Shown here: piece by piece, positions 10,715-56,955 of the stretch
Numbering within the stretch: position 1 is the first letter of the stretch
How the letters are laid out: the number at the start of each line of letters is the position of its first letter
Source of the DNA: Punica granatum
Taxonomy: Eukaryota > Streptophyta > Magnoliopsida > Myrtales > Lythraceae
Direction: 5' to 3'
Assembly (NCBI RefSeq): GCF_007655135.1
Contig: NC_045132.1
Coordinates: 10,044,001-10,108,000, forward strand
DNA length: 64,000 nt
Notes under the pieces: model-generated
The model's input: the letters and a program-made list of their open reading frames with translations, nothing else
What the model was told of the DNA's origin: nothing
Database searches by the model: none
Position numbers and translations under genes: made by a program

Positions 10715-11860
10715 TTCTTTGGACTTCGTGTCCTTATTTACTGTTTTTCGGACTTCGTGTCCACATCTACTGCATTCTGGACTTCGTGTCCACATTTACT
10801 GCTTTTCAGACTTCGCGTCCAGGACTTCGTGTCCATCTTTAACGCTTTTCGGACTTCGTGTCCATCTTTATCGCTTTTCGGACTTCGCGTCCAGGACTTC
10901 GTGTCCACATTTACTGCTTTTCGGACTTCGCGTCCAGGACTTCGTGTCCACCTTTACCGCTTTTCGGACTTCGCGTCCAGGACTTCCTGTCCATCTTTAC
11001 CGCTTTTCGGACTTCATGTCCACATTTACTGCTTTTCGGACTTCATGTCCATCTTTGCCGCTTTTCGGACTTCGCGTCCAAGACTTAGTGTCCATCTTTA
11101 TTGCTTTTCGGACTTCGCGTCCAGGACATCGTGTCCACATTTACTGCTTTTCGGACTCCGCGTCCAGGACTTCGTGTCCATCTTTACCGTTTTGCGGACT
11201 TCGCGTCCCGGATTTCGTGTCCATCTTTACCGCTTTTCGGACTTCGCGTCCAGGACTTCGTGTCCATCTTTACCGCTTTTCGGACTTCGCGTCCAGGACT
11301 TCGTGTCCATCTTTACCGCTTTTCGGACTTCGCGTCCAGGACTTCGTGTCCATCTTTACTGCTTTTCGGACTTCGCGTCCAGAACTTCGTGTCCATCTTT
11401 ACTACTTTTCGGACTTCGCGTCCGCCTCTTACTGCATTTTGGACTTCGTGTCCACATTCATTGCATTCCGGACTTCGTGTCCGTGTCTACTGCATTCTGG
11501 ACTTCGTGTCCTCATTTACTGCTTTTTGGGCTTTGTGTCCACTTTCATTGCATTCCGGACTTCGTGTCCGTGTCTACTGCATTCCGGACTTCGTGTCCTC
11601 ATTTACTGCTTTCCGGACTTCGTGTCCGCATTCACTGCATTTTGGACTTCGCGTCCGCATTTATTGCATTTTGGACTTCGTATCCACATTCATTGCAATC
11701 CGGACTTCGTGTCCGTGTCCACTGCATTCCGGACTTTGTGTCCTTATTTACTGCTTTTCGGACTTCGTGTCATCATTTACTGCTTTCCGGATTTCGTGTC
11801 CGCATATACTGCTTTTCAGACTTCGTGTCCGCATTTAATGTCCTTCAAGTATGCGTCTAC
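10715..11860 (+). repeat. Tandem array A: 29- and 43-bp hairpin-word units
   Basis: Two unit types occur. The 43-bp unit (measured at 11238, 11281, 11324) carries two words, GGACTTCGCGTCC and GGACTTCGTGTCC, then a CTTTACCGCTTTT spacer. The 29-bp unit (measured 11469 to 11498) carries one word and a TTTACTGC-type spacer. Each word is an inverted repeat with a GGAC/GTCC stem and a TTCGC or TTCGT loop. The 43-bp type fills about 10.80-11.43 kb and the 29-bp type lies on both sides. All three forward frames are open across most of the array, which is a by-product of the repeat and not a gene. Confidence 0.9.
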
Positions 11861-11970
11861 ATTTACTAATTTATGGTTTGTACTATTTTGCAACAGGCCA
11901 GACGATCGCTAGGATCAAACGAGGTGCTTCTCAGAGTCTTTGGCTGCATCCTCTATCCGAGCACACAACC

Positions 11971-11984
11971 AAAGAGGGGCAAGC
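11971..11984 (+). promoter_or_regulatory. Polypurine tract of element A
   Basis: AAAGAGGGGCAAGC directly precedes the LTR start TGTCAGCACC. The identical 14-mer precedes the LTR in D (43506-43519, minus) and E (57284-57297). Upstream, the words 'ctttggc..' and 'atcctctat(c)cgagc' are also shared. This is the expected plus-strand priming site. Confidence 0.85.
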
Positions 11985-12884
11985 TGTCAGCACCCAATTT
12001 CGGTCCATCGGCTCCAGGGGGGGCAAAATTGTCATTTTTCTATTTATCACCTTTTTAAAAAAAAAATTACTGTTCCGGGCAGTCCGGGCAGGCCGGGCAG
12101 CGGCAACCGGCTGCCCGTGATCTGGCTAGCCACCCAGAACAGGAAATCGCGGATTTCCGCGATTTCCTCCCCAAATTGGCCGAAATCTCAACCAAAAATT
12201 GCAATTAAAGGGGGGGAAATCGAATTCGATCGGGACACAACAGAACCCACGGAGAAAAAAGGAGAAATTGGCTCTCGTTTCGGGATTTTGGCAAATCGTT
12301 GCCCGATCGGAACAACGCCGGAAAACTATGAAATCGCCTTGATTCCGACCGTCCCGGCCATCAGTGAAGCCCAGATCGGAGCCGGCGTGACCCAGGCGGT
12401 GCTCAGACCCCTCACCCGATCCTTTTCGCGTCGTCGTCGCGGCGTCCAACAGCCGGAACCGCCGCTCGCAGCCGATCGGCGCCGCCAGCACCACCCTCCT
12501 CCGGAGCTCCTCACTGACGGGCTTCGGCCCATTATTTCTCTGTTGCAGGACCAGCCCAGTCGGCCCAGTCCGCCAACCTCGGCCCAGCTATCCTTCCGCA
12601 GCCCAAGCCTTCGTTCGGCCCGAGTTGCTCCAGACCAGCCCACTCCTTTCGGGCGGTTTCTCCTTCGGACCGGCCGACCGATCCGATCCGATCCGACCCG
12701 TTCGTCCGGCAGCTTTCGTATATTACAGAAACGCCCCCAAACTTTTGGGTTAGGTAAAATCTCAACTTAGCGGCATGTTTAGGGCTTTATATTAAATATC
12801 ATGCTTGCTTGAATGATGATGACATGAAATAATTGCTTGTTGGTTGCATAGATTATCAAAATTATGCCGAATCCGATTATTCTA

Positions 12885-14723: not shown

Positions 14724-14746
14724 CATGCGAGATATAGGCTCGCATG
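14724..14746 (+). promoter_or_regulatory. Conserved U5 hairpin 1 (CATGCGAG / CTCGCATG), LTR of A
   Basis: A perfect 8-bp stem around the loop ATATAGG. In B and E the same position reads CGTGCGGG / CCCGCACG with the identical loop, so two stem positions changed together on both arms. This supports a selected structure in RNA or DNA. Confidence 0.6.
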
Positions 14747-14846
14747 TAACAGAACCCCCGAATTCGGAACCTTGGGTTTCGCAGACCATATGCCTTAGCA
14801 ATTAGGTGTACTCCGTACCCCTAGACCTGGGTAACTTGCCGGCCCT

Positions 14847-17180: not shown

Positions 17181-17199
17181 TGGCGACTCCACTGGGGAC
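17181..17199 (+). promoter_or_regulatory. Primer-binding site of B
   Basis: TGGCGACTCCACTGGGGAC begins three bases after the LTR end. TGG matches the tRNA 3' CCA. The same 19-mer follows the LTRs of C (35763-35781, minus) and E (51336-51354). From memory, Ogre elements use a tRNA-Arg primer; I could not check the tRNA here. Confidence 0.8.
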
Positions 17200-18315
17200 A
17201 TACTTAGTGGGTTCGAGCTCAATTCCGTTTGCTTGCTTGCATGTTTATTTATCGCTTTCCGTACATTTATTTTAAGCACATTTATTTCGCGCACATTTAT
17301 TTTACGCACTTGCATCGCATCATTCTAGCGGGTTTCTAGGTACCTTGTCCGAATCCCACGGGCACCAAAATAGGAAGCTAGGTTAGTCAGAGGTTCTGAG
17401 TAAGGGAACGGATCGAGTCGACTATGCCACCGAATCGGCCCCCAAAGATCCTCGCTCGATTTCAAGGAATTCACACCCTTGAATCGGGAGCCCCCATCCA
17501 TAGATAGCACGGTCCCGGTAGCACCGAACCATGCATCGTGCTATGCCTCCATGCAAGCCTTCAACCCGACTCCGACAATAGTCCATCGAGTCGGCCTGCG
17601 AGCCAATTGAGTCTTTTCCATTTCAAGAGCGATGTACATGTAATTTCTATTAAGCCATGGGCATTTACTCTCTTCGCACACATGCATCATGCAGTTTTCA
17701 AAAATTAGGATGTCATTCATGTTGACGAGTCCTAAACGGATTTTCCTGTCGTCTTGGTAAGGGACGCCTTGCTCGGCCTCCTGCCCGCGCCTCGACAGAG
17801 TCCGCCAACACACGAGGACCTCACCGACCTGCCACAGAATGCGAATGGTGTATATTCCGGGATAACATGATCGACCTCATCAACACTAGATTCGATCACC
17901 GAGAGGTCGCTGAGAGACGAAGAACTTGCCGGCCAACCACCTTAGAGGGAGCTCTCCCAAACCCGTGCCAAGATGCAAAGATGCGGTCAGGAGCTCGCTT
18001 GAGCGAACGCCGCCTTGGAGAGGTCTAGGAAGAGGGCTCGAGGAGGCCCACACATGCACTCTGGGATAGATATCTCCGCAAGGCCCTCGCCTAGAACCGG
18101 TGCTTTCCGAGACCGCGCTCGCTCAAACCCCAAGTGTGGTGGCAAATCAGCTTAAGGCTCTATTTTACAAAATTTGCATTGTACTTTGAACCTTTCGAGT
18201 TAATGTGAACGACAACATTAGCCTTTGAAAACTCACGCACTGCATGCATCCTATCCATTTACTGTTTTACACGACGATTAACACTACCACACGGTAGACA
18301 AAGTTGTGACCGCCT
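17200..18315 (+). other. Leader of B with internally deleted ORF1 remnants
   Basis: Matches A's leader up to its ORF1 start ('gtcttggtaagg', about 17750-17815). After about 120 bases it matches only the end of ORF1 and its coiled coil (about 17940-18060) and the following spacer (about 18150-18260). The central body of ORF1 is gone. C has the same two remnants on the minus strand, so the deletion predates the separate copies. Short ORFs here are relics. Confidence 0.7.
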
Positions 18316-18890: not shown

Positions 18891-19065
18891 ACCCCGCATT
18901 TATTGCATCGGGCTTCGGCCCCACATCGGGTTTCAGCCCTGCATCGGGCTCCAGCCCTGCATTTACTGCATTGGGCTTCGGCCCCGCATCGAGCTCCGGC
19001 CCCGCATTTATTGCATTGGGCTTCAGCCCCGCACCGGGCTCCGGCCCTGCATCGGGCTCCGGCCT
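18891..19065 (+). repeat. Short hairpin-word array of B
   Basis: Repeats of GGGCTTCGGCCC or GGGCTCCGGCCC words separated by 'gcatttactgcatt' spacers. GGGC-TTCG-GCCC is a C(UUCG)G tetraloop hairpin if transcribed. The last unit stops at the LTR start with no polypurine tract between, which marks a deletion join. Confidence 0.8.
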
Positions 19066-21648: not shown

Positions 21649-23582
21649 TCCCTTGGCCCACCAGAGGCTAGGGCGGTCTCCCCCTTTCCGAATAGGGTCG
21701 ATTCCTATGTTGTTTTTATCATTAATTGTAGGTGACATGTTAACATGACGGGAAACGTCCCGAATCGGGGCCGAAGAAACTCTCCCGACTAGTGTGAGCC
21801 ATGAAAGCTCACGGCCCTCCTTGATGGAGTGTGGCCGAGAGCTTCCTTGGACCACACAAGTCCGGGAAGCATTCTTCCACCTCGAGACGGACCGGTTCCC
21901 GTATTTTGTCCATTTCGCCATTATTTGAGTCGATGTCGTCTTATTGCTTTCGTTCAAATATCTCGTTCGTGTGTATTCGTATGATTTTATATGATTATGG
22001 TCACGGCGGTATTGAGATGAGTAAAAATATGTATTATGAACGTGCTTAACGTATTATGCATGCAAGGAATGGCCCGAACCGATGTAGGATACCACCTGCG
22101 ACCCAAGGCGGGTCAAGGAGGCCTCTCGGTCTAATCCTTCGGAAGAGGGCCGAGTGCTCCTTGACCCCCCGGGTCTAGGGTGGTCTCCTCCGTCGTTTCG
22201 CGTTCGATCCTTGGAATTGAGTGTATTCGTATCCGTGTTCCGTTGCTAGACGTGTGTTAATCTCGTAATAGGCGAATGGATTTCGGACCATTACCCATTA
22301 AACCAATGATGACCGTAACAAGGAGCAACAAACATCGAATAATTTCACAAACGGGATAAGCGGGACGTGCTACTCGGCTAATTAAATCACTTGGACTAAA
22401 TAATTGGGTAAATTGGTTATTAACTTGTAAACGCATCGATGATTTACGGAACGGCGTGAATGCCCTTTTTCATTAAAAAAAACTCACAATTTCAAAATAC
22501 CGAGACATGTAACACGAATAAAATGGATGTCTAACGAGTACTCGCGTGCTATGACTCGAGTCCGGGCCCGATTTGAGGCGGCTCGAGTCAAGACGCGCGA
22601 GTCTTTCTTAGACTTCTTCGTGTGACATAATCTCCAATTTATACACGAACATCGCAATTTCATCATCCAAGGACATAATCGTCATTCTGTGATTCACCGA
22701 TACCCTAGGCGTTAGGGAGTTGGAAACACTTCGATCTAATGGACGGAAAGGGCAACCCGTTCGGGTGCGAGTTTCATTCGCACGGCCCATTCCGTTCACT
22801 TTCGGTGTTTCTATCTTCCTATCGTAGATTCGGTGGTGAGCATTTTATTTCAGTTACGAAACACGAAAAAACGGATTAATCATGCACTCGACCTAATCAA
22901 ACGCTAGATAATGGATAGGCGGAATGATAGATTCCAATCTAGAGTTAATACACGAGTTTGGCTAATTCGGTGAAACCCGCAGCGTCACCTCACTGAATAA
23001 GAATCTTAAAACCAACACACAAATGTAATTGGCTTAGAACCCTATTCTAAGACCACCACCTACGTTTGCCCAGGTTAGATACATTGTTTGCTAACCAACC
23101 CCGGTTAATAACTGATTAAACCACGTACATTCGGCCTAATATACAACTTGTCTGTATTCACCGATACTTATCAGTTGTTGTCTGTATTTCATCAGTTTTA
23201 TTAGTTTTCTCCTGTTTTATTCTTGCATTTGCTGATTTATCGCGATTCGGGTCCGAACCCATAGGTTACGTGTTACATGGGGTCCAATGCCCCAAATCAC
23301 CGAACACGAGGTCCAAAGCCTCCTGATCCACTGAGCGCGTGCAACCCGAATGCGGAATGAGATCTAGCCTCGATTCACCGTCACACTCCGAATGCGGCCT
23401 ATGTGGAAGGCAAATTTGGATTGGGCACGTGAAACGGGTTTAGATATCACCGCGGAACTCGATCGGTCCATCGGATACAGCGGGAACCAACCGGTTCTCC
23501 TGCAAACCGTTGGATCGATCGGACCCGACCCCCGACTCTTTGAGCCCGCGTTGCCTTAATTTGCTTATCGGTCGTTCAAAAA

Positions 23583-23682
23583 NNNNNNNNNNNNNNNNNN
23601 NNNNNNNNNNNNNNNNNNNNNNNNNNNNNNNNNNNNNNNNNNNNNNNNNNNNNNNNNNNNNNNNNNNNNNNNNNNNNNNNNN
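23583..23682. other. Assembly gap (100 N)
   Basis: Exactly 100 N, the usual placeholder for a gap of unknown size. It separates B's 3' LTR from the 8-kb array of C, so their distance and relative orientation are not established by this sequence. Confidence 0.98.
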
Positions 23683-26600
23683 TAAAATGGACGCGAAGTC
23701 CGTGGACGCGAAGTCCGGAAAGCGATAAAGTCACTAGGCCGAAACACGAGAAAAGCAGTAAATGGACGCGAAGTCCGTGGACGCGAAGTCCGGAAAGCGA
23801 TAAATTCACTAGGCCGAAGCTCGAGGAAAGCAGTAAATGGACGCGAAGTCCGAAAGCATAAAGTCACTAGGCCGAAGCCCGAGGAAAGCGGTAAAATGGA
23901 CGCGAAGTCCGTGGACGCGAAGTCCGGAAAGCGATAAAGTCACTAGGCCGAAGCCCGAGGACCGTAAAATGGACGCGAATCCGTGGACGCGAAGTCCGAA
24001 AGCGATAAAGTCACTAGGCCGAAGCCCGAGGAAAGCAGTAAAATGGACGCGAAGTCCGTGGACCGAAGTCCGAAAGCGATAAAGTCACTAGGCCGAAGCC
24101 CGAGGAAAGCAGTAAAATGGACGCGAAGTCCAGAAAGCAGTAAAGTCACTAGGCCGAAAGCCCTAGGAAAGCGGTAAAATGGACGCGAAGTCCGTGGACG
24201 CGAAGTCCGAAAGCGATAAAGTCACTAGGACCGAAGCCCGAGAAAGCAGTAAAATGGACGCGAAGTCCGTGGACGCGAAGTCCGGAAAGCGATAAAGTCA
24301 CTAGGCCGAAGCCCGAGGAAAGCAGTAATTGGACGCGAAGTCCGGAAAGCGATAAAATCACTATGCCGAAACCCGAGGAAGCAGTAAAATGGACGCGAAG
24401 TCCGTGACGCGAAGTCCGGAAAGCGATAAAGTCACTAGGCCGAAGCCCGAGGAAATCGGTAAAATGGACGCGAAGTCCGTGGACGCGAAGTCCGGAAAGC
24501 TATAAAGTCACTAGGCCGAAGCCCGAGGAAAGTAGTAAAATGGACGCGAAGTCCGTGTACGCGAAGTCCGGAAAGCGATAAAGTCACTAGGCCGAAGCCC
24601 GAGGAGCGCAGTAAAATGGACGCGAAGTCCGGAAAGCGATAAAGTCACTAGGCCGAAACACGAGAAAAGCAGTAAAATGGACGCGAAGTCCGTGGACGCG
24701 AAGTCCGGAAAGCGATAAAGTCACTAGGCCGAAGCTCGAGGAAAGCAGTAAAATGGACGCGAAGTCCGGAAAGCAGTAAAGTCACTAGGCCGAAGCCCGA
24801 GGAAAGCGGTAAAATGGACGCGAAGTCCGTGGACGCGAAGTCCGGAAAGCGATAAAGTCACTAGGCCGAAGCCCGAGGAAAGCCGTAAAATGGACGCGAA
24901 GTCCGTGGACGCGAAGTCCGGAAAGCGATAAAGTCACTAGGCCGAAGCCCGAGGAAAGCAGTAAAATGGACGCGAAGTCCGTGGACGCGAAGTCCGGAAA
25001 GCGATAATGTCACTAGGCCGAAGCCCGAGGAAAGCAGTAAAATGGACGCGAAGTCCAGAAAGCAGTAAAGTCACTAGGCCGAAGCCCAAGGAAAGCGGTA
25101 AAATGGACGCGAAGTCCGGAAAGCGATAAAGTCACTAGGACGAAGCCCGAGGAAAGCAGTAAAATGGACGCGAAGTCCGTGGACGCGAAGTCCGGAAAGC
25201 GATAAAGTCACTAGGCCGAAGCCCGAGGAAAGCAGTAAAATGGACGCGAAGTCCCGAAAGCGATAAACTCACTAGGCCGAAGCCCGAGGAAAGCAGTAAA
25301 ATGGACGCGAAGTCCGGAAAGCAGTAAAGTCACTAGGCCGAAACCCTAGGAAAGCGGTAAAATGGACGCGAAGTCCGTGGACGCGAAGTCCGGAAAGCGA
25401 TAAAGTCAATAGGCCGAAGCCCGAGGAAAGCAGTAAAATGGACGCGAATTCCGTGGACGCGAAGTCCGGAAAGCGATAAAGTCACTAGGCCGAAGCCCGA
25501 GGAAGCAGTAAAATGGACGCGAAGTCCGTGGACGCGAAGTCCGGAAAGCGATAATTCACTAGGCCGAACCCTAGGAAATCAGTAAAATGGACGCGAAGTC
25601 CGGAAAGCAGTAAAGTCACTAGGCCGAAGCCCGGGGGAAAGCAGTAAAATGGACGCGAAGTCCGTGACGCGAATTCCGGAAAGCGATAAAGTCACTAGGC
25701 CGAAGCTCGAGGAAAGCAGTAAAATGGACGTGAAGTCCGGAAAGCAGTAAAGTCACTAGGCCGAAGCCCGAGAAAGCGGTAAAATGGACGCGAAGTCCGT
25801 GGACGCGAAGTCCGGAAAGCGATAAAGTCACTAGGCCGAAGCCCGAGGAAAGCCGTAAAATGGACGCGCGTCCGTGGACGCGAAGTCCGGGAAGCGATAA
25901 AGTCACTAGGCCGAAGCCCGAGGAAAGCAGTAAAATGGACGCGAAGTCCGTGGACGCGAAGTCCGGAAAGCGATAAAGTCACTAGGCCGAAGCCTGAGGA
26001 AAGCAGTAAAATGGACGCGAAGTCCAGAAAGCAGTAAAGTCACTAGGCCGAAGCCCTAGGAAAGCGGTAAAATGGACGCGAAGTCCGTGGACGCGAAGTC
26101 CGGAAAGCGATAAAGTCACTAGGACGAAGCCCGAGGAAATCAGTAAAATGGACGCGAAGTCCGTGGACGCGAAGTCCGGAAAGCGATAAAGTCACTAGGC
26201 CGAAGCCCGAGAAAGCAGTAAAATGGACGCGAAGTCCGAAAGCGATAAAATCACTATGCCGAAACCCGAGGAAAGCAGTAAAATGGACGCGAAGTCCGGT
26301 GGACGCGAAGTCCGGAAAGCGATAAAGTCACTAGGCCGAAGCCCGAGGAAAGCGTAGCCGAAGCCCGAGGAAAGCGGTAAATGGACGCGAAGTCCGTGGA
26401 CGCGAAGTCCGGAAAGCTATAAAGTCACTAGGCCGAAGCCCGAGGAAAGTATAAAATGGACCGAAGTCCGGTACGCGAAGTCCGGAAAGCGATAAAGTCA
26501 CTAGGCCGAAGCCCGAGGAGCGCAGTAAAATGGACGCGAAGTCCTGGACGCGAAGTCCGGAAGCGATAAAGTCACTAGGCCGAAACACGAGAAAAGCATA

Positions 26601-40770: not shown

Positions 40771-43505
40771 ACGATGATAAACATGCATGGTGTAATAAGG
40801 AAATTGCATAATATTAAAGTTCGGAATTAAAATCATGCTTAAAACCCCTTAAAACTCTATAAACACAACAATAATGTAAAAGTCCTAGCTCCTCTAAGTC
40901 GGGAATGGTCATACCTAGTCCCGAGATGCGGGATGGTACCTTCAAGAGTCGGGTTGGACCGTTGATGGGTCGGGTTTGGGCTGTTTTCCGTTGAACAGAC
41001 CCGAATGGCACCAAACAGACCCGAATGGAAGGGTGGACAGACCCGACTGGCACAAGTCGGGTCGGACGTCGCCACGGAGGCTCCCGATGGAATTTTGAGG
41101 CAAGGTCGGTGGCCTTGGATAGCCAAGGGACCCCTCTAGGTCACCGTGGTGGTCGTTTGTTCCCAGAGTTGTCGGGTCGACCCGTACAGTCCTGTAAAAA
41201 TCACCCAAAACAGAGCACGACTGGAATTTCGGACCCGACTGGCACAAGTCGGGTCGGACGTCGCCACGGAGGCTCCCGATGGAATTTGTGAGCAAGGCCA
41301 ATGGCTCCCGACTGCTAACTCACCTCCGGAGGTGGCTGTGGTGGTCGTTTTCCGAAAAGAGTCTCGGATCGACCCGATCTGCAGGAAAACCGCACAAACA
41401 GTCAGAAATTTCGACCCGACTGGGCAGTCAGGCTGTTTCTTCTTCCTGGGGTTAAACCGACGGGTTTTTCTTGGATTTCTTGACTCCTTGACACCCTATG
41501 GTTGTGTGGGGAGGTGTTTGATGGGTTTTGATAGCTCAAACCGACTTGGAAAGGCTTGAAACCCGGTTTGACATTTTTGACCCGAGAAGGACCAAATCTG
41601 TCCAGATTTTGTTCAAGGCTGGTTCTATGGCTTAGAGGCTTCAAACTTAAAATCTAAGCTCAGAAATGGATAGAGGGGGTCGAAAAAATGTGGGATATGA
41701 AATTTGGTAAAGTTTGGATTCAAGCCGGGAGGGATTCCGACTTAAGACTTTGCCCGGTTTTGCTTGGTTTTGCTTGCTGGAAATGGCTGAAGCTTGCTGC
41801 GGTTTGCTATGGAGTTTGAGAGCTTTTGAAGAGTGAGAAATGCTAGAGAGAGAGTGCTTGAAGGTGTATGATTAAGTTAATGACACTTGGACAATATATA
41901 GGAAAGCTTAAGTGCAAGATTATTGAAGAAAAGTGAAATTAGGGCCATGGATTAGTGGAATCCGAATTTTTTAATCAAGATAGGGATGAAGACTTCTTCC
42001 ATTGCATTGATGAGGAAGAGCCAAATGCATTGATGGAGATGGAGTTGATGGCTTGAGTGTTGAATAGAAAGACTAAAGATATTTTGGGCTTAGAGTGCAT
42101 GAGAGGGAGAGGATGATGCCAAAATTGTTGGGGCAAAGGGGCGGTTGCCCTTGGGCAGCCCGTGGGTCCCACGGCCCATGAGGAGAAGCCAGGAGAAAGC
42201 TCGGGTCTCGATTGGTCGCGCATTCGAAGTTCGTGGTTCGAATTGAACGCCGAATTATCGATATGCGCGAGAAAACGGTTTTAACGAGCCTAAGATTGGC
42301 ATTTTTCATGGAGAAATGTCTCAGAAGCGTACGAGACTCGAAAGCCGGTTTTGCTCATTGCAGGTGACCAGAGCGAAGTTGTCCGCTTCTGACAGCATAT
42401 CTCTTGTCTGTGTCTCACGTTGGTCATTTTGACATAAATTGTCAGACAACGTGAACAATTGTCCCTTAAGCCGGTAATGCTAACGTGGGGCCGGAGACGT
42501 CCTAGGAGGCCGAAACTGGATTTCTCATAATGATTTCTGAGTTGCTTGGGCACTCCGAAGATTACTGTAATCTCTGTTTGTTGATATCAGACCTCCAAGG
42601 ACTTGAAAAGTGTATCTGAGACCTCTAAAGCACTGCTCGGGAGGTCTAGATGAGTCGTTTGATTTATTCCGACGGTTCCACGTTGAGCCTTGAGAAGGTT
42701 AGCATGGTATAGGGTAGACACTCGGCATCAAGTTTCCGTGGAAAGGACCTCCGGATATGCATTTCCACTGAAAATGGCCATTTCCGCTCCTCGGAGGTTA
42801 TTCGGGAAACTGAAAAGGGTTTTGCTGTCTGTTTTGCCCAATTGTGAATGTCCGCTAGAGTTTTCAAGGCAATGCGGTATGAACTTCGTTTGCCGTAATT
42901 CCATTAGACCAGTCTTCGATTATGCTCTTCCGAAGAGGGGTATGCCCGTTTTGTCGCTTGGAAGTCATTCAGGGTGTCTGTATGGCTTCCAAAAGACAAC
43001 CTGAAGCACTGCACGTGCTCTGTATGATTGTGGGGCATGGCCGCATCTGATATTTGGAATTAACTTTTCTCCGAGAAACCGGCATTTCTGGACTTCCACT
43101 GAAAAGTTGTCTGTATATAGAAAGTTGTTCTGTATAGAGCAAATGATTTGCAAAATGCCTTTGGGGACACTTTTCATCTGTTTGGCATCGGAGTGGATTT
43201 TTGGAGTCCAATATTGGCTATCCTCCGATGATCGAGCGAACTATCGGAAAATAGAACCGTTCGTGTGATATAGTGAAAATGCCTGTTTTGGACATTGTTG
43301 AGCTCTCTAGTCACTCTGTTGTCCTTTGGTGACCCTTGGAGTCCTTCTGTCGTGTGTACATGTCATCTGCTTGATTTTGCTGACTTGAGAATGAATAGTG
43401 ATTTCTCGCTCTGTGGAGCCTTTTTCTGTGATAACGCTCAAGTCGTGGCATTGTTCGCTATTGATGGACATTGTTTGACTTGTGGATCAAAATGGGGTGC
43501 TGACA
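40771..43505 (-). repeat. 3' LTR of D, first 2,735 bp
   Basis: Starts TGTCAGCACC on the minus strand (43505) after a polypurine tract. Its first half resembles E's 3' LTR (for example 43080-43150 against 57650-57710). The part next to C (40771-41420) is almost the same as C's 38331-39000, so D's LTR is a mosaic of the two LTR types. TATA at 41894-41900, donor-like AGGTATG at 40914. The phrase 'gactggcacaagtcgggtcgg' occurs at both 41045 and 41235, an internal duplication of about 190 bases. Confidence 0.75.
41894..41900 (-). promoter_or_regulatory. LTR TATA box, element D
   Basis: The minus strand reads CTATATATTG, followed by the same CT-rich leader as in C and E. Confidence 0.55.
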
Positions 43506-43519
43506 GCTTGCCCCTCTTT
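43506..43519 (-). promoter_or_regulatory. Polypurine tract of D
   Basis: The complement reads AAAGAGGGGCAAGC, identical to A and E, immediately before the LTR start. Confidence 0.85.
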
Positions 43520-43924
43520 GGTTGGATGCTCGGATAGAGGATTTGGCCAAAGACATAAAGAAGAACCCTGTTTTGGTCAGAGTGTTTGCTTTGACATCTC
43601 CTTTGATAGTTCCTTTCCTCCCTCTTTGGATATGTAGGGGATGTTGTACCTAATGTAAAGCAAGAAGAAACAAAATAAGGCTTGGACAAGTTTTTGCATA
43701 AAGTGGGGAAAAGATATATGAAGACAACATATGTAGTAACATGAAATGACATAAAAAGGAAACATGAAAACAATGTGCGGTTTGAAGTAAAGAATGCAAA
43801 GGTTAAAGAAAAGTACAAAGCTTAATGGAAAGTGCAAAACTTAATGGAAATTGCAAAGTGCAAGGCAAAAAAAGATAGAGCGCTTGCCCTAGGTTTTGCA
43901 AGATGTGTAGGTGAGAGGACCCAG
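43520..43924 (-). other. Spacer between array and polypurine tract of D
   Basis: AT-rich, purine-rich on the plus strand, with short repeats such as 'gcaaaacttaatggaaa' (43830-43860). It matches E 56960-57283 on the other strand. No gene. Confidence 0.6.
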
Positions 43925-44840
43925 CGAACTTAAGAAGCAATAAAGTAAACCTGCACGGGTTAGCAGACCCGGCAAGGTTGCAAGAGCCACGAGCAAGGTG
44001 GCTTGGCGAATTTGCGGAGCAGGTAAGTAAATTCGCACGAGTTAGCAGACCCGGCAAGAGTGCAGGAAAGTAAGCTCGCACGGGTTAGCAGACCCGGCAA
44101 GATTGCAAGAGGCACGAGCGAGGTGGCTCGGCGAACTTGCAGTGCAGGAAAGTAAGCTCATACGGGTTAGCAGACCCAGCAAGAGTGCAGGAAAGTAAGC
44201 TCGCATGGCTTAGCAGACCCGGCAAGAGTGCAGGAACGTAAGCTCGCACGGGTTAGCAGACCCGGCAAGAGTGCAGGAAAGTAAGCTCGCACGGGTTAGC
44301 AGACCCGGCAAGATTGCAAGAGGCACGAGCGAGGTGGCTCGGCGAACTTGCGGTGCAGGAAAGTAAGCTCGCACGGGTTAGCAGATCCGGCAAGGATGCA
44401 GAAATGTAAGCTCGCACGGGTTAGCAGATCCGGCAAGGATGCAGAAATGTAAGCTCGCACGGGTTAGCAGACCCGGCAAGAATGCAGAAAAGTAAGCTCG
44501 CACGGGTTAGCAGACCCGGCAAGGATGCAGAAATGTAAGCTCGCACGGGTTAGCAGACCCGGCAAGAGTGCAGAAGAGTAAGCTCGCACGGGTTAGCAGA
44601 CCCGGCAAGAGTGCAGAAGAGTAAGCTCGCACGGGTTAGCAGACCCGGCGAGAGTGCAGAAGAGTAAGCTCGCACGGGTTAGCAGACCCGGCGAGGCTGC
44701 AGAAATGTAAGCTCGCACGGGTTAGCAGACCCGGCAAGAGTGCAGAAAAGTAAGCTCGCACGGGTTAGCAGACCCGGCGAGGATGCAGAAAAGTAAGCTC
44801 GCACGGGTTAACAGACCTGGCGAGGTTGCAGAAAAGTAAT
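43925..44840 (-). repeat. Tandem array D: 43-bp CGGGT-word units
   Basis: The unit length is 43 bp (44581 to 44624). Each unit carries CGGGTTAGCAGACCCG, an inverted repeat with CGGGT/ACCCG stem and 6-nt loop, then 'gcaagagtgcagaaaagtaagctcgca'. About 20 units. At the left end a longer variant adds 'aggcacgagcgaggtggctcggcgaacttg'. It lies at the same place in D as the arrays in A, C and E but has a different sequence. Confidence 0.9.
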
Positions 44841-47635
44841 GCAAAGTCTAATATGAGTGCAAATGCTTGGGAATGGAATGATGCGCGAAAGGAATCTTTG
44901 TGATTCAATTTGAGGCTAGTGCTTGTCGACGCTGCAAATGATGCTGTGACAGAATGCTTTGTCGCTCGTTGTCTGATTGCAGTGCAGTTGAATGAACAGA
45001 TCGGTGTTGATGCTGGGACGAAGTCATTTCATTGAAGCCTTGCTTTTGGGGCGGTAGTATGTTTGCTCTGTGAGAAGATTGTCGGAAGCCGACGTTTCGC
45101 ATTCCGAAACTCGAGCTCTGGTGAGGAGCGCCTACGTATCCCGAGTGGTCGGGAATTAGAGTCTGCCGTAGTTCTTGCTGTTTGCAATACCTGTGAGCCT
45201 GACATTACTAGTAAATCATGTGAGAAATACTAACATGAGATAGGCACAGGTAAGCAGTAAAAAGTCGTTGTGACGCGGAGATCTTCAGTTTCAGGTCGCT
45301 TGAGCAACCCGTGAAGAATTTTGCTTTGACAGTGCAAGTAGGTCCCGTTCTCGGAGGCCTAGATGCGAGGCCTCCAGGGGCTCCCGTTAGTCATGGGCAT
45401 ATCGAGACTTCCCAACGATGCCCTAGCAGTTCTATCGTTTGTTGGACGCGCCCGTCGGCTTTGAACCCTTCTTAATAGGGTACCGTAGGGCGGCTGCATT
45501 TACAACCCGCTTGGGGATTTCTGTTTAGATTTGGTCAGACTCGGTCTAACCATTTCCAAAGTGTTATGACTAAACCCCCGGAGAAAAATGTCAGGGATTT
45601 TGGCTCTGTGGTAGCCTGTTAAAAGGGCGGTTGTGGCCCATTTGGAGTTATGCAAAGACAAAGAGAAAAGAGAAAGCTTAGGAAGCACGTTGCCCCAAGT
45701 TAAAAGGATACGCGGGTTCACGCCTGCAACGAGATGTACCCTCATTTTCCTTCGTCCTTCTGTTGTGTAGGTTGTACTGAACTGCTTGAACGGCGTATTC
45801 AGTTACCCACTGTGCTTGAGGAAGGTTCCTTCTTGGACGGTTGAATGGTATTGGAGAGCCGATCGGGGATCGTGTTGGAATAGATAACTTGGCCACTTCC
45901 CTTGGGGATCCCTTGTCCACACGATGTGTGAGAGACTAGGGGGCAATTTTATTTATCTCTCGTTTTGCTCTCCTTTTGCTACGGTCACCCACCTCGGGGC
46001 CGCACCTCTTAACCTAAAGGGGAAGAGCTTTCCTTTTGCCACGTCCGCCCCAAAGGGTTTCCGGTCATGCCTCTATTTTTCCCTAGCTTTTGCCTAGGCC
46101 GCCCCAAAAGGGGTTTTCGACCTAGCGGGTTCGATTCTTTTATCTCTCGAGTTTGCAAGGGCAAAGGTTTTGAAGGATTCAACCTCCGAGTGCATTGTTT
46201 TTTGTCTCCGTCGAGGAGTTTTGTCTGCTGCTCCCCTTTTGTCGGAGTTTGTTGATTTCTCTGGATTGGCGACGCCGGTGCTTTTGATGAACCTCGGCAT
46301 TGCCTTTCTTTTGTTGGTTGGCGGGTTTTTCCCGCTTCTTTTCTCTCTCTCTTCATTGGTGGGTTTTTCCCGCTTCTTTCCGCTCTGTTTTTTTCTTGCA
46401 GCCGGGGTTTGTTTTGTGCCCCGTGTATTTGTTTGAAACTCCTCGACTTTGCATCGCCGAGGCCGCTTTGGTGTGCTTCGCCTCGTGGAGACTCGTTGCA
46501 TGTTGCTAGCCCTATTTTATGAGGACCGGCTTTCTTGGAAGTTTGACTCTCGTGCACTCGAAAGCTGAACTTCGTGTCATTTGCCCTTGCAAGCATTGCA
46601 TGTGAATTTTCCCCTGTTGACTAGAAACAAAATGTAGAATTGCCCCGTGAATAGGGAAACGAGGTTGCTCTGGTGCGAATGTTGAACGGGGATGCCCCGA
46701 TCTTCATTCGTTGAAGTGGCCCATGGTAAGCGCCTTGTGCGATATCTCTGATCATCTCTTGCTGTTCTTTGCAGTACGTGCCTCTTGGAGGGTGCACACT
46801 GCTGAAGTCACTGGATGTTCAAGGAAGACAGTTGCATAAATGCTGAGTGATTCGTTCGATTGTCCTCGTCTTCGACTTCATAGGGGGTACCTCATCGTCG
46901 AACCCCTCCCTCGCCAAAGTATAAGGAAAAGGTCCGAGACAAGTTCTCGGGGAAGCATGAACTCGCGAATCGCTCTTCGCTTGTGGTCAATGTGCCCCTG
47001 TGAAGGATGACAAAGAAGACAATGCATTAGGCGATTATGCGGGGGATATGTGGTAAGAAATATAAGGTGGTCCCATGGGAAAATCCCTTTTTGTCCCGCC
47101 CGCGACCCATGGGGTGTCGCGTGCAGACGACATTTGTTTCCGAGAATCTGGTCATCACCACTCTGGAGTGGTTAGACCGTGACTGAGGTCACATAAGCAT
47201 ATTTTCCCTAATTGCGGGTAGGCCTGTGCAGCCGTCCTAGGGAAGGCTTGAGGAGCCGGGTCCCATGAGGACAGGCGAGTCGAACAGGTTCAACAGAACT
47301 AATAGGGCGTTGCAAAGACCGTCCTAATGCTCCGTTGAAGGATTTGTTCATGTCGGAAGCCCATTTGTGGGAATGCATTTAAATTAAAGTAAAAGAGAGT
47401 TTAAAGAAGACTGCGCATGTTGTTCCAGTGCTTAGTCGACGGCGACGGTAGAGGACGGGTGAGATCCATTCTTTGATCGGAGGCATGATCGTGCCGGTAT
47501 CTCCTGCGATCGAGAGTTGGGTCATGCTCCGTTTGTGGAGCTGTCACTTCCGGTCTTTGCAGTTGAAGGATTAGACTTGCTCCTCAGAGTATCGCTTGGA
47601 TGAATTTGAATCCAAGTCGATTTTGGATTTCAGAT
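44841..47635 (-). other. Conserved noncoding block of D
   Basis: Same order of landmarks as C and E: 'gagcgcctacgtatccc' (45128), 'gccgatcggggatcg' (45860), 'cgggtttttcccgcttc' repeats (46320-46375), 'gccgtcctagggaaggc' (47231) and 'gcctgtgcag' style flanks. The longest minus ORF (195 codons from 46596) is related to one in E (53926-54372) only over part of its length and with frame changes, so I do not call it a gene. Confidence 0.65.
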
Positions 47636-48050
47636 GAGCCTGAAAGCAGTAAATGTGAGGTGTCAAAACCTGAAAGCAGTAAATGCGTGGCTGGAGCCCA
47701 AAAGCAGTAAATGCTGGGCCGGGGCCCGAAAGTACTAAATGCGAGGCCGAAGCCCGAAAGCAGTAGATGTGGGGCCGAAGCCCGAAAGCAGTAGATGCGG
47801 GGCCGAAGCCCGAAAGCAGTACATGCGAGGTCGAAGCCCGAAAGTGGGGTCGAAGCCCGATGCAGTAAATGCTGGGCCGAAACCCTATGCAGTAAATGCT
47901 GGGCCAAAGCCCGATGCGGGGCAAAAGCCCAAAAGTTGGGTCGAAGCCCTATGCAGTAAATGCTTGGCTGAAGCCCGATGCGGGGCAAAGCCCAAAAGTG
48001 GGGCCGAAGCCCGATGTGGGGCCGAGCCTGATGCAGTAAATGCATGCTCG
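47636..48050 (-). repeat. Second, smaller hairpin-word array of D
   Basis: On the plus strand, 'gaaagcagtaaatgc' spacers alternate with GGGCCGAAGCCC-type words (sense strand GGGCTTCGGCCC). Later units drop the spacer and run word after word. One unit has GAGGTGTCAAAACCT, another inverted repeat. It matches B 18891-19065 and E 52770-52890. Confidence 0.85.
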
Positions 48051-48345
48051 ATAAGAAAGTGCAAGAGATGCAAAAGCAAAGGTCAATGCTAAGCAACAGT
48101 GTAAGGCGCTGCAAAGCAGTGACTCTGATTTTCTCGCATTCTTTGTGGAGGGAGGGTGGGAACTCAGTGTTGAAATCCCAATGAGCTGGATGAGAGACGT
48201 TTGTTGCCTCAATTGTGATGGTTCAGTATTCAGGCTGCCATCTTGTTTGGGGATTTCCTGCAATGGAAGAAGGAAACAATGAAGGAGCATGAACTGTTCG
48301 CAATTCCAATACAAGGGTGTAGGGAAGCGAACTAGCCTGGTAGGC
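48051..48345 (-). other. Internal segment of D up to the junction with E
   Basis: Homologous to B 18630-18890 and E 52490-52760. Homology stops at 'gcctggtaggc'. The final TAGGC (48341-48345) is shared with E's LTR at the join. Confidence 0.65.
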
Positions 48346-51354: not shown

Positions 51355-52050
51355 ACACTTAGTGGGTTCAGGCTCGATTCGTTTGCTTGCTTGCATGTTC
51401 ATTTACCGCTTTCCGCAATTTTTCGCTTATTTATTTTACTCACATTTACTTTTCTGCACTTGCATTGCATCATCCTAGCGGAATTCTAAGTACCAAATGC
51501 CTGAAATCCCACAGGCACCAATTTAGGAAGCTAGGTTAGTCAGAGGTTCCGAGTAAGGGAGCGGATCGAGTCGGCTCCGCCACCGAACCGGCCCCCAAAG
51601 ATCCTCGCTCGATTTCAAGGAATTGACACCCTTGAATCGGGAGCCCCCATCCCTAGTTAGTGGTTGTCCCAGTAGAACACTGAAACCATGCATAAACAGG
51701 GACCGTCATGCTGGACCAAAATTTGCCTTCATGCCGCCAACCGACCCAAAAGTTGAGTCTTTGAGTCGGCTCGTAGTTTTTCTTTTAGGCGAGCCTTTTG
51801 TTGTTTTCACTGAATGAGTGTTGTACAATGTAAAGAACTCGTGTTATAATTTATTTTTTCTGCACCTGCATGCATGTTTTCAAAATAACCTAGGACATCA
51901 CATCGGTTTAATGTTTAAGCTCCCCTTTTCAAATTAACTATCTTTGCAAATTAAGGAACTTGAACCAAATCGATGCAATGGCATTAGCTTTTGAAAACTT
52001 ATACACTGCATGCATTCTAGCTATTTCTATGTTTGCACAACAGATGCCAT
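51355..52050 (+). other. Leader of E
   Basis: Matches the leaders of A-C up to the conserved hairpin block (51610-51655). It then jumps to the spacer before gag ('ttttgaaaacttatacactgcatgcat', about 51990), so ORF1 is removed almost completely. No gene. Confidence 0.65.
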
Positions 52051-52051
52051 G

Positions 52052-52240: not shown

Positions 52241-55200
52241 GAGCTATGGACCGAGGGCTGACCCACCTTCCAAGGCGAAACTAACCAACAGCAACTTCTT
52301 ACTAACAAAGAGCGTCATCGCATGATTGGACGCACATCTCTCCGCATGACCCCACGCATCTACCAACGATTAAGCGTGCCTTATACATGTCCAAGCATGT
52401 TCACACCAACTCATACACGCATGCTCAACATATCAATGCATGTCTCGTGGTGGGCTCGCACGACGCCTACCAGGCCAGTTCGCTTCCCTACACTCTTGCA
52501 TTGAAATCCTGAATAGTTCATGCTCCTTCATTGTTTTCTTTTCCCATTGCAGGAAATTCTCAACAAGAAGACAGCCTGAATACTGAGCGAACACAATTGA
52601 GACGACGAACGTCTCTCATCCAGCTCCTTGGGATTTCAACACTAAGTCCCCATCCTTACTCCACAGAGCAAGACCGCAAGCAAATCAGTGTCACTGCTTT
52701 GCAACGCCCTGCGCTATTCCTCAGCATTGACCTTTGCTTTCACATTTCTTGCACTTTCCTATCAAGCCCGCATTTACTGCATTGGGCTCCGGCCCTACAT
52801 CGGGCTCTGGCCCAGCATTTACTGCTTTTGGGCTCCGGCCCGGCATTTACTGCTTTTAGGTTTTGACACCTCGCATTTACTGCTTTCAGGCTCATCTGAA
52901 ATCCAAAATCGACTTGGATTCAAATTCATCCAAGCGATACTTCGAGGAGCAAGTCTAATCCTTCCACTGCAAAGACCGAAAGTGACAGCTCCACAAACAG
53001 AGCATGACCCAACTCTCGATCGCAGACCAGCACGGTCATGCCTCCGATCAAAGATTGGATCTCATCCACCTCCGTTGTGGTCGCCGACTAAACACTGGGG
53101 CAACACGCTCAGTTTCCTTTAAACTCTATGTTGCTTTCATTCAAATGCATTCCCACAAATGGGCTTCCGACATGAACAAATCCTTCAATGGAGCATTAGG
53201 ACAGTCTCGAGGACGCCCTATTAGTTCTGTTGGACCTGTTCGACTCACCTGTCCTCATGGGACCCGGCTCCTCGAGCCTTCCCTAGGACGGCTGCGCATG
53301 CCTACTCGCAATTAGGGAAAACATGCTTATGTGACCTCAGTCATGGTCTAACCACTCCAGAGTGGTGATGACTAGATTCCCGGAAACAAATGTCTTCCAC
53401 ACACGACACCCCATGGGTCGCGTGTGGGACAAAAGGGATTTTTCCATGGGTCCACCCCATATTTCTTACCACATATCCCCCCGCATAATCGCCTAATGCA
53501 TTGTCTTCTTTGTCATCCTTCACAGGGCCACATTGACCACAGGCGAAGAGCGATGCGCGAGTTCACGCTTCCCCGAGAACTTGTCTCGGACCCTTTCCTT
53601 ATACTTTGACAAGGAAGGTGTTCGACGATGAGGTACCCCCTATGAAGCCAAAGAGAAGGACAATTGAGTGAATCACTCAGCATCGATGCAACAGTCTTCC
53701 TCGAACATCCAGTGACTTCAGCAGCGTGCACCCTCCAAGAGGCATGTACTGCAAAGAACAGCAAGAGATGATCGGAGACATCGCACACGGCGCCTGCCAC
53801 AGGCCACTTCCACAAATGAAGACAAGGGCATCCCCGATCAACATTCGCACCAGGGAAACCTCGGTTTCCTATTCCACATGGGGCAATTTGACATTTTATT
53901 TTCCTAGACAATAGGGGAAAATCACATGTTACGCTTGCAAGGGCAAATGACACGAAGTTCAGCTTTCGAGTGCACGAGAGTCAAACTTCCAAAAAGCCGA
54001 TCCTCACAAAATAGGGCTAGCAACACGCAACAAGTCTCCACGAGGCGAAGCACACCAAAGTGGCCTCAGCGATGCAAAGTCGAGGAGTTTCAAACAAAGA
54101 CACGGAGTACAAAACAAACCCCAACTGCAAGAAAAAAAAAGAGCGAAAAGAAGCGGAAAAAACCCGCCAATGAAGAGAGAGAGAAAAGACGCGGGAAAAA
54201 TCCGCCAATGAACAAAACAAGGCACTGCCGAGATTCATCAAGAGCACCGGCGCCGCCAATCCAGAGAAGTCAACAAACCCCAACAAAAGGGGAGCAGCAG
54301 ACACAACTCCTCGACGGAGACATAAAACAATGCACTCGGAGGTTGAATCCTTCGAACCCTTTGCCCTTGTAAACTCGAGAGATAAAAGAATCGAGCCTGC
54401 TAGGTTGAAAATCCCTTTTCGGGGCGGCCTAGGCAAAAGTTAGGGTAAAAGAGAGGCACGACCGGAAACCCTTTGGGGCGGTCGTGGCAAAAGGAGAGTT
54501 CTTCCCCTTTAGGTTGAGAGGTGCGGCCCCGAGGTGGGTGATCGTAGCAAAAGGAGAGCAAAACGAGAGATAGATAAAATTGCCCCCTAGTCTCTCACAT
54601 ATCATGTGGACAAGGGATCCCCAAAGGAAGCGGCCAGGTTATCTATTCAAACACGATCCCCGATCGGCTCTCCAATACCATTCAACCGTCCAAGAGGAAA
54701 CCTTCATCAAGCACAGTAGGTAACTGAATACGCCGTCCAAGCAGTTCGGTACAGCCTACACAACAGAAGGACGAAGGAAAATGGGGGTACATCTCGCAAC
54801 AAGCGGGAATCCGTGTATCCTTTTAGCCTGGGGCAACGTGCTTCCCAAGCTTTCTCTTTTCTCTTTGTCTTTGCATAACTTCAAATGGGTCATAGCTACC
54901 CTTCAATAGGCTACCACAAAGTCAAAATCCCAGACATTCCTTTCCGGGGTCTAGTCATAATGCTTTGGAAATGGTCAGACCGAATCTGAACAGAAATCCA
55001 CAAGCAGGTTGCAAATGCAGCCGCCTTACGGTACCCTATTGAGAAGGGTTCAAAGCCGACGGGGGCGTCGAACAAACAATAGAACTGCCAGGGCATCGTC
55101 GGGGAAGTCTTGATATGCCCATGCATGGCTAACGGGGGCCCCTGGAGGCCTCGTATCTAGGCCTCCGAGAACGGGAGCAAAATTCTTCACGGGTTGCTCA

Positions 55201-55440
55201 AGCGACCTCGAAACTGAAGATCTGTGCATCACAATGACGCTCTTTTTACTGTTTACCTGTGCCTATCTCATGTTAGTATTTCTCAGATGATTTACTAATA
55301 ATACTAGGATTACAGGTACAACAGGCACGCAAGAACTACGGCGGACTCTGATTCCGGAACACTCGGGATACGTAGGCGCTCAACCCCAGAGCTCGAGTCT
55401 CTCAACACACGGCATCCTGCAAAGCAAAATCCCACATCAC
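52241..55440 (+). other. Conserved noncoding block of E, with array remnant
   Basis: Plus-strand counterpart of the blocks in C and D, with the landmarks in reverse order. At 52770-52890 a remnant of the small array is kept (GGGCTCCGGCCC words with 'catttactgc' spacers). At 54400-54560 the 'ggcaaaagttaggg / ggcaaaaggagag' phrases also found in A's 3' UTR occur. Short ORFs (for example 53926-54372) are not maintained between copies. Confidence 0.65.
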
Positions 55441-56955
55441 TGCAGCCAGGGTTTCACACCCGCTTTACTGCTTTCGGGTTACACACCCAACATTTACTGC
55501 TTTTGGGTTACACACCCACACATTTATTGCTTTCGGGTTACACACCCACACATTTACTGCTTTCGGGTTACACACCCAACATTTACTGCTTTCGGGTTAC
55601 ACACCACACATTTACTGCTTTCGGGTTACACACCCACACATTTACTGCTTTCGGGTTCACACCCACACGGGTTACCCACACGGGTTTCACACCCACACGG
55701 GTTTCACACCCACACGGGTTACACACCCAACATTTACTGCTTTCGGGTTCACACCCACACGGGTTTCACACCCAACATTTACTGCTTTCGGGTTCACACC
55801 ACACGGGTTTCACACCCAACATTTACTGCTTTCGGTTCACACCTACACGGGTTTCACACCCACACTGCTTTCGGTTACACACCCAACATTTACTGCTTTC
55901 GGGTTTCACACCCACACGGTTTCACACCCAACATTTACTGCTTTCGGGTTTCACACCCACACGGGTTACACACCCAACATTTACTGCTTTCGGGTTTCAC
56001 ACCCACACGGGTTACACACCCAACATTTACTGCTTTCGGGTTACACACCCACATGGGTTTCACACCCAACATTTACTGCTTTCGGGTTTCACACCCACAA
56101 GGGTTACACACCCAACATTTACTGCTTTCGGGTTACACACCCACACGGGTTTCACACCCAACATTTACTGCTTTCGGGTTTCACACCCACACGGGTTTCA
56201 CACCCAACATTTACTGCTTTCGGGTTTCACACCCACACGGGTTACACACCCAACATTTACTGCTTTCGGGTTTCACACCCACACGGGTTACACACCCAAC
56301 ATTTACTGCTTTCGGGTTTCACACCCACACGGGTTACACACCCAACATTTACTGCTTTCGGGTTACACGCCCACACGGGTTTCACACCCAACATTTATTG
56401 CTTTCGGGTTTCACACTCACACGGGTTACAAACCCAACATTTACTGCTTCCGGGTTTCACACCCAGACGGGTTACACACCCAAAATTTACTGCTTTCGGG
56501 TTTCACACCCACACGGGTTTCACACCCAACATTTACTGCTTTCGGATTTCACACCCACACGGGTTACACACCCAACATTTACTGCTTTCGGGTTTCACAC
56601 CCATAGGGGTTACACACCCAACATTTACTGCTTTGGGGTTTCACACCCACACGGGTTACACACCCAACATTTACTGCTTTCGGGTTATACACCCACACGG
56701 GTTTCACACTCAACATTTACTGCTTTCGGGTTTCACACCCACACGGGTTACACACCCACACATTTACTGCTTTCGGGTTACACACCCAACATTTACTGCT
56801 TTCGGGTTTCACACCCACACATTTACTGCTTTCGGGTTTCATACCCACACATTTATTGCTTTTGGGATACACACCCAACATTTGCTGCTTTCGAGTTACA
56901 CACCCAACATTTACCGTTTTCGGGTTACGCACCCCACATTTATTGCTTTTAGGGT
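55441..56955 (+). repeat. Tandem array E: 29/30- and 46-bp GGGT-word units
   Basis: The spacer 'catttactgctttc' alternates with one word (29-30 bp units, 55521/55551/55580) or two words (46-bp units, 55932/55978/56024). Words are GGGTTACACACCC and GGGTTTCACACCC, inverted repeats with GGGT/ACCC stems. About 35-40 units. Open reading frames of 367 and 299 codons through the array result from the absence of stop words in the unit. Confidence 0.9.

Follow-up and report, generated by a model that had tools for sequence, protein, structure and literature searches.

We analyzed a window of 64,000 bases from Punica granatum (NC_045132.1, positions 10,044,001 to 10,108,000, forward strand), in which nested long terminal repeat (LTR) retrotransposons of the Ogre/Tat type, here called elements A to E, carry seven repeat arrays. 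Judged from their sequence, the arrays are the tandem-repeat 3′ untranslated regions (UTRs) of pomegranate Ogre/Tat elements. We regard them as a known repeat region with a new, hairpin-based anatomy, and errors that reverse transcription makes in copying hairpins are probably what maintains it. The arrays, assigned to two sites within the elements (see below), are as follows.

10715 to 11860, + strand: array A (site 2), GGAC-TTCG[T/C]-GTCC words in 29- and 43-nucleotide (nt) units; 45 words, 32 spacers, 12 word-word neighbors
18891 to 19065, + strand: array B (site 1), GGGC-TTCG-GCCC words, abutting the LTR at 19066
23683 to 31690, − strand: array C (site 2), about 8 kb, GGAC-TTCGC-GTCC and GGGC-TTCG-GCCT words; 300 words, 226 spacers, 72 word-word neighbors
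43925 to 44840, − strand: array D2 (site 2), CTTGC-CGGGT-CTGCTA-ACCCG-T-GCGAG hairpin with a TTACTTTTCTGCACT-like spacer; minor word CGAGC-CACCTC-GCTCG
47636 to 48050, − strand: array D1 (site 1), GGGC-TTCG-GCCC, then AGGT-TTTGAC-ACCT and TTTCAG-GCTCAT-CTGAAA
52770 to 52890, + strand: array E1 (site 1), homologous to D1 and B
55441 to 56955, + strand: array E2 (site 2), GGGT-T[T/A]CAC-ACCC words on ACATTTACTGCTTTC spacers; 62 words, 37 spacers, 25 word-word neighbors

The arrays listed in an initial annotation of this DNA exist much where it had placed them, with inverted-repeat words in the sense of their elements. Its format of words on spacers was borne out in six of the seven, in which a 12- to 14-base inverted-repeat word alternates with a pyrimidine-rich, TTTAYYGC-like spacer; in the seventh, D2, the hairpin is longer and the spacer a different one. 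When the six arrays were tokenized by word and spacer patterns and neighbors up to 12 bases apart were counted, the 738 pairs comprised 308 word-spacer, 309 spacer-word, 121 word-word, and no spacer-spacer pairs. Words stand in runs of 1 to 5 per spacer, and two consecutive spacers never occur. Counts of the motif TTTAYYGC, with at most one mismatch and short flanks included, were 31 (A), 4 (B), 218 (C), 10 (D1), 5 (E1), and 36 (E2). Doubled words are joined by A (array A), AC (C), ACAC (E2), or, at site 1, six or seven bases, and we read these distinct linkers as about four separate word-only doublings. Word types beyond those in the initial annotation are AGGT-TTTGAC-ACCT and TTTCAG-GCTCAT-CTGAAA (D1, E1) and the minor word of D2. 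Array C ends at its 3′ side in a 100-N assembly gap (23582 to 23700), so that its length of about 8 kb is that of the assembled part.

The host elements are best seen in element A, whose features in the window are as follows.

557 to 1852, + strand: open reading frame (ORF) 1, plant mobile domain / DUF7745 (PF10536, E = 2.9e-12; PF24924, E = 1.6e-29)
2236 to 3678: gag (Pfam scan)
6135 to 7406, + strand: reverse transcriptase (RT) ORF
7355 to 8908, + strand: ORF with RNase H, second RNase H (RVT_3), and integrase (RT_RNaseH, residues 14 to 118; RVT_3, 173 to 291; Integrase_H2C2, 381 to 437; rve, 456 to 516)
11971 to 11984, + strand: polypurine tract AAAGAGGGGCAAGC, before the 3′ LTR of A, which starts at 11985

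The domain order is thus ORF1 with the plant mobile domain, gag, RT, RNase H, second RNase H, and integrase. Ogre elements are defined by a second RNase H (aRH) between RNase H and integrase, and 57% of them have an extra ORF with a plant mobile domain (PMC6317226; here and below, literature statements draw on portions of the cited texts). Element A has both, the extra ORF lying upstream of gag, and by comparison with that description its predicted layout is that of Ogre elements. From the sequence alone, a break is seen between the gag-side ORFs and those for RT, RNase H, and integrase, and no protease domain was found in the element A ORFs scanned against Pfam. The two best matches of its RT were predicted Punica granatum proteins (88% identity over 94% of the query and 94% over 78%), and other named plants followed at 58 to 71% identity (120 matches listed of 5,571), which by itself would place the window in pomegranate or a close relative of it. 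The Ogre/Tat setting assumed in the initial annotation is upheld by these domains and the polypurine tract, along with the occurrence of the tract peptide in array-like proteins described below.

Elements B, C, D, and E are related to one another, and partly to A, by LTR, leader, and 3′ sequence. No DNA match of at least 80 bases linked B to E with the element A pol (blastn), and ten further ORFs, nine of them in B to E and making up part of the ORFs there, had no Pfam family above the cut-off. We call C, D, and E coding-poor because their scanned ORFs lacked such a family. One of these, a 203-amino-acid sense ORF of D (46012 to 46620, − strand), falls in a 2.4-kb stretch that D has in common with C and E. 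The primer-binding site TGGCGACTCCACTGGGGAC lies at 17181 in B, 51336 in E, and 35781 in C, that of A being left of the window. The identical tract AAAGAGGGGCAAGC occurs also at 57284 to 57297 (E) and at 43506 to 43519 on the minus strand (D). At 48341, a truncated D adjoins the 5′ LTR of E, from which roughly the first 1.5 kb appear to be missing, by deletion or as an assembly join.

The array of element A lies between the pol ORFs (the integrase-core ORF ends at 8908, a further ORF at 9580) and the polypurine tract, and D2 and E2 likewise precede AAAGAGGGGCAAGC. No such tract stands between array B and its LTR, so the placement between integrase and tract does not apply to B, and for array C the 3′ side is unassembled. 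D and E are siblings, matching at 88.8% between 45106 to 47729 and 55401 to 52800, and at 84.4% between 42150 to 43681 and 58652 to 57126. Between these flanks lies a CGGGT hairpin array in D and a GGGT array in E; different, fast-turning arrays inside flanks that are alike are what is expected of a Tat 3′ UTR. Array C begins after the same upstream flank (31750 to 34110 versus 45126 to 47494, 74.5%) and element A shares the downstream flank of site 2 (83.5% over 91 bases), and on this likeness the A and C arrays probably fill the same interval as D2 and E2. Site 1 lies upstream of site 2, by about 2.5 to 2.8 kb in D and E, and B, D1, and E1 are copies of a single homologous array there (74 to 84% identity, flanks included); in element C the site-1 flanks are present and the array is absent. 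Array C holds the word of A plus a B-like word. The description of the arrays as unrelated therefore has to be given up, since three are homologous, D2 and E2 occupy sibling intervals, and C carries A's word.

The site-1 arrays of E (about 52689 to 52987, + strand) and D (47542 to 48123, − strand) are bracketed by a broken inverted repeat, GTCACT..TTTGCA / TGCAAA..AGTGAC. In a bracketing test that was tried on the six arrays other than B and computed for five (C has the gap), only these two came near to significance (p = 0.054 and 0.100), and bracketing of the arrays is not claimed. Rfam gave no match at the gathering threshold in the 64,000 bases, and a described RNA family was rejected as the identity of the arrays.

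Whether the words form hairpins beyond chance depended on the test. Stems of at least 4 bp were found in 49 of 88 distinct words and 87 of 187 single words, compared with 21% of 15,909 control windows. A test of perfect Watson-Crick stems on eight clustered types against shuffles was not significant (Fisher p = 0.31); it used one form per type, and for some types the clustering had chosen decayed forms. Folding energy was tested afterwards, on our own hand list of the commonest word forms, against mononucleotide shuffles. The p values were 0.006 for A, 0.013 and 0.19 for the two words of C, 0.068 for D1, 0.075 for B/E1, 0.011 and 0.010 for E2, 0.18 for the AGGT word, 0.041 for the last word, 1.0 for the pre-array stretch, 0.004 for D2, and 0.001 for its minor word. 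Eight of these twelve were pooled (A, D1, one E2 form, AGGT, the last word, the pre-array stretch, D2, and its minor word), the remaining four, including both words of C, being kept out as near-copies; the pool gave Fisher p = 7.7e-7 in sense and 1.4e-6 in antisense, and p = 0.0018 without the two D2 words and the last word. These p values come from a somewhat permissive test, in which 10% of 150 control 22-mers also gave p ≤ 0.05. With dinucleotide shuffles, the sense p values of twelve units were 0.014 and 0.022 for A, 0.012 for B, 0.24 for C, 0.15 for D1, 0.006 for D2, <0.002 for its minor word, 0.32, 0.24, and 0.098 for the E1 stretches, and 0.066 and 0.018 for E2. The words thus exceed shuffled sequence in pooled folding and not in the test of perfect stems, and the folding signal is equal on both strands. 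As a caution, short palindromes in arrays need pooled tests, as most single families lie near chance.

The arms of the families are GGAC/GTCC, GGGC/GCCC, GGGT/ACCC, and AGGT/ACCT, with stem positions 1, 3, and 4 varying on both sides. Among the 24 ways of re-pairing these arms, only the observed one is fully complementary (p about 0.04); this between-family covariation is modest, as the types are related and were picked as palindromes. A further pair of words came from proteins described below, decoded from them and not seen as DNA. GGGT-TTGGAC-ACCC fits the predicted pomegranate protein P0124 in two frames at 4 places and none of 120 controls, and from AGGT-TTTGAC-ACCT it departs by a matched change at stem position 1, the two loops being similar; the five-pair form GGGAC-TTCGG-GTCCC fits 9 of 45 proteins. 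Within arrays, stem changes are almost all one-sided. Compensated doubles per changed stem pairs were 0/11 in A, 0/31 for the GGAC word and 3/68 for the second word of C, 0/20 in E2, 0/16 in D2, 0/3 in B, and 0/12 in D1, and E1 had no changed pair. Stem changes on distinct words were balanced (C>T 24, G>A 25), which together with the few compensated doubles gives no sign of pairing guarded in one RNA strand within arrays. The GGAC words of array C are rich in C>A stem changes (18/32, compared with 1/11 in A and 3/22 in E2). The matched stem changes of the initial annotation therefore hold between families and not within arrays, and selection on structure as such finds no backing there; neither the strand-equal folding nor the balanced changes give a sign of selection on one RNA strand. 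Unmatched changes inside arrays are what is expected of inserted, decaying copies, and do not decide between selection and copying errors.

Some spacers resemble the 5′ leaders of the same elements, which also have a hairpin of their own.

17248 to 17261, + strand: B leader motif TTTATCGCTTTCCG, a 14-mer present 68 times in array C
51402 to 51413, + strand: E leader motif TTTACCGCTTTC
51446 to 51460, + strand: second E leader motif TTACTTTTCTGCACT, a 15-mer with one occurrence in array D2, where its first 13 bases are found four times
35704 to 35715, − strand: C leader motif TTTACCGCTTTC
17347 to 17363, + strand: leader hairpin of B, GTCCG-AATCCCA-CGGGC
51499 to 51516, + strand: leader hairpin of E, GCCTG-AAATCCCA-CAGGC
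35606 to 35622, − strand: leader hairpin of C, GGTCG-CGTCCCA-CGACC
76 to 92, + strand: leader hairpin in the partial leader of A, GGTCG-CGTCCCA-CAACC, one mismatch

Outside the arrays, exact TTTAYYGCWTTY occurs three times in the window, always in sense, in the leaders of B, C, and E, where it follows the beginning of the primer-binding site by 66 to 67 bases; the leader of A starts outside the window, to its left. Against the leaders of B, C, and E, the longest exact match of array C measured 15, 14, and 15 bases, respectively (shuffle p = 0.001, 0.006, and 0.001), and among 1,772 outside tiles a match of at least 14 bases to array C occurred only over these leaders and an LTR spot at 49228. 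Array D2 matched the leader of E over 15 bases (p = 0.001; next best tile, 11) and those of B and C over 7 bases each. Antisense leader matches ended at 8 bases. That the D2 spacer fits the leader of the sibling E, not that of B or C, suggests that spacers may have been seeded from the leader current at the time. The proposal that structure is kept and not sequence leaves this out of account, the spacer sequence being conserved in most arrays and that of C and D2 matching the leader. The leader of B also contains about three tandem copies of ACATTTATTTTACGC (17263 to 17309, + strand), a small spacer-like array.

The leader hairpin stands about 160 bases behind the primer-binding-site start, with the loop end TCCCA in all four leaders, and three of its five pairs vary on both sides (B's U-G pair counted). 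Its folding p values were 0.011 (B), 0.0005 (E), 0.034 (C), and 0.069 (A) in sense and 0.68, 0.0025, 0.020, and 0.012, respectively, in antisense. This pairing uses our own register, the MAFFT alignment of the leaders leaving the hairpin arms unaligned; on that alignment RNAalifold placed a stem that overlaps this pairing in part and is partly broken (columns 169-174 paired to 186-190), and the overall covariation term was +0.69, which is no support. Copying of the words from the leader hairpin is not claimed, the likeness being only 10 bases between the A leader and array C.

Gene models extend the format beyond the window. With translated array A as query, 7,998 candidates drawn from 5.8 billion were scored, and 42 proteins reached E ≤ 1. 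Punica granatum accounted for 41 of them and JGI for the remaining one (P0160, E = 0.27); the 36 with E ≤ 0.001 were without exception Punica. Array E2 added three more, all Punica, two of them at E ≤ 0.001. In the resulting set, P0121 to P0165, the predicted Punica proteins (38 with E ≤ 0.001, 44 with E ≤ 1) are gene models over arrays, and some also carry RT- or integrase-like stretches. Twelve-base spacer-compatible patterns numbered 376 in the 16,443 residues of these 45 proteins, a set biased by the array queries, versus 14 in 120 control RT proteins with 62,761 residues in all. For the GGAC word the counts were 507 and 2; the bare 8-base spacer pattern was less telling (524 versus 413). 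The polypurine-tract peptide was present in 13 of the 45 and in none of the 120. The word GGGTTTCACACCC fits P0163, P0164, and P0165 57, 16, and 25 times, and TTTAYYGCWTTYGGG 0, 0, and 1 times; P0163 and P0165 fit CYCCGCTGCATTCGGG 12 and 8 times and CACCACCGCAGTTCGGG 11 and 1 times, P0164 neither. Since P0163 and P0165 carry E's word on other spacers, the TTTACTGC spacer is not fixed genome-wide. A search of viral contigs with the integrase ORF found no relatives; a 16-base spacer pattern matched 26 viral contigs once each, which we read as chance.

We tentatively favor, at a probability of roughly 0.4, a process acting in reverse transcription, namely template switching and arm copying at hairpins, as what made the format and keeps it. 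The element's polymerase would stall at hairpins during reverse transcription in the virus-like particle and change template. Such switches could duplicate words, extend arrays wherever the next spacer gives homology, copy one hairpin arm onto the other, so that matched arm changes would arise without selection, and now and then carry leader sequence into the 3′ UTR. The format would persist because units of a hairpin plus homology are what the process amplifies, the exact sequence being irrelevant, and pairing would go unmaintained after insertion, giving unmatched changes inside existing arrays. Switching and arm copying would explain the word-only doublings, the differing arrays of siblings, matched changes between and not within arrays, and the leader-like spacers. 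Strand transfer between co-packaged copies has already been proposed as the origin of Tat arrays (Macas 2009, via PMC7004042), and palindromes and stem-loops are described in general terms as taking part in the formation of tandem repeats from transposable elements (PMC10794571).

Several points weigh against this process. The core stems are mostly only 4 bp, weak as a pause site, and pausing and switching are inferred. Arm copying at quasi-palindromes is known from earlier work, on which that step rests. Four word-only events versus no spacer-only one come to about 1 in 16 by our own reckoning, which is only suggestive. The leader matches are the best of 21 leader-array comparisons; those of arrays C and D2 are strong, that of array D1 to the E leader is weaker (12 bases, p = 0.008), and those of arrays A, B, E1, and E2 were not significant.

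The arrays may instead consist of selected RNA modules, the unit being a compact copy of the leader (T-rich motif plus variable-stem hairpin) that serves as a genomic-RNA binding or dimerization site, and whose multiplication beside the polypurine tract would increase packaging or the formation of dimers, a benefit that would fit C, D, and E as seemingly coding-poor elements. The C and D2 spacers do match the leader just behind the primer-binding site, the leader has its own hairpin with varying stems (GTCCG/CGGGC, GCCTG/CAGGC, GGTCG/CGACC, GGTCG/CAACC) and a constant TCCCA loop end, and arm changes are matched between families. Yet folding has no strand bias, C>T and G>A stem changes are balanced within arrays, E's word sits on other spacers in P0163 and P0165, and element C has no site-1 array, all of which make selected modules rather unlikely. 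Bolder and still less probable is the idea that the 3′ UTR arrays are multimers of the 5′ leader module, T-rich motif then variable-stem hairpin in the same order, and form a many-fold recognition or dimerization site by which elements, coding-poor ones included, compete for the particle. If it were true, the fast turnover of words with kept pairing would be an intragenomic arms race over RNA recognition.

Descent plus chance appears about equally doubtful as selected modules; here, one ancestral weak-palindrome repeat spread and diverged, and the matched differences of four related types are coincidental. It accords with stems of at least 4 bp in 21% of control windows, the perfect-stem p of 0.31, a between-family covariation that rests on 1 in 24 permutations, and the unmatched changes within arrays. 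It sits badly with the D2 hairpin and minor word, individually unlikely at p = 0.004 and 0.001, and with the pooled folding. Moreover, the A/C and E2 words share 7 or 8 of 13 bases (by eye) between flanks of 76 to 84% identity, with their arms still complementary.

DNA palindromes bound by a dimeric protein, as enhancer or chromatin sites, would account for the equal palindromy of both strands and the fixed spacing, but both half-sites vary between families while sibling flanks are alike, so that no fixed binding site is conserved and we consider such sites very improbable. Repeat-protein coding is rejected as next to impossible: long open frames do run through arrays A, B, and E in several frames, and database gene models cross such arrays, but the 29-, 43-, and 46-nt units cycle through all frames, the C and D2 units contain stops, and Neumann 2019 left such ORFs out as low-complexity by-products (PMC6317226).

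Tat elements commonly carry tandem repeats between pol and the 3′ LTR, which are a source of plant satellite DNA (PMC7004042) and whose origin or function has been called unknown (PMC3305785, PMC11963269). In the open-access literature, as far as the portions covered extend (Macas 2009 itself and supplements lying outside this scope), we found no description of Tat/Ogre 3′ UTR arrays as having hairpin words, a constant spacer, or a match to the leader. The retroviral leader hairpins for packaging and dimerization likewise lie downstream of the primer-binding site (PMC3902901); the likeness of the leader hairpin here is in position and shape only, with no homology, and its function here is hypothetical. 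In Retand, from another Tat lineage, family-specific tandem repeats of unknown origin and function also lie between pol and the 3′ LTR; antisense ORFs are stressed there, and the terms hairpin, stem-loop, and secondary structure are absent from the available text (PMC11963269). The soybean GmOgre/Gmr9 minisatellites are five interleaved repeat families downstream of the Ogre coding region, two of which share nine of their last 11 bp; the part of that text covered here contains none of the terms hairpin, palindrom-, secondary structure, spacer, and inverted (PMC3305785). The hypervariable 3′ UTR repeats of Tat/Ogre elements resemble our arrays in lying between the coding region and the 3′ LTR, in consisting of family-specific tandem repeats, and in their proposed origin by strand transfer in the particle, with no mention of a hairpin word, constant spacer, or leader match in the part of the account covered here (Macas 2009, via PMC7004042). 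Compared with these systems, the anatomy described here (a hairpin word, a spacer, and in two arrays a leader-matching spacer) makes a known, unexplained repeat region testable, and raises the questions of whether hairpins determine which unit is amplified, whether a spacer derives from the leader of its own lineage, and whether arrays aid the entry of RNA into particles.

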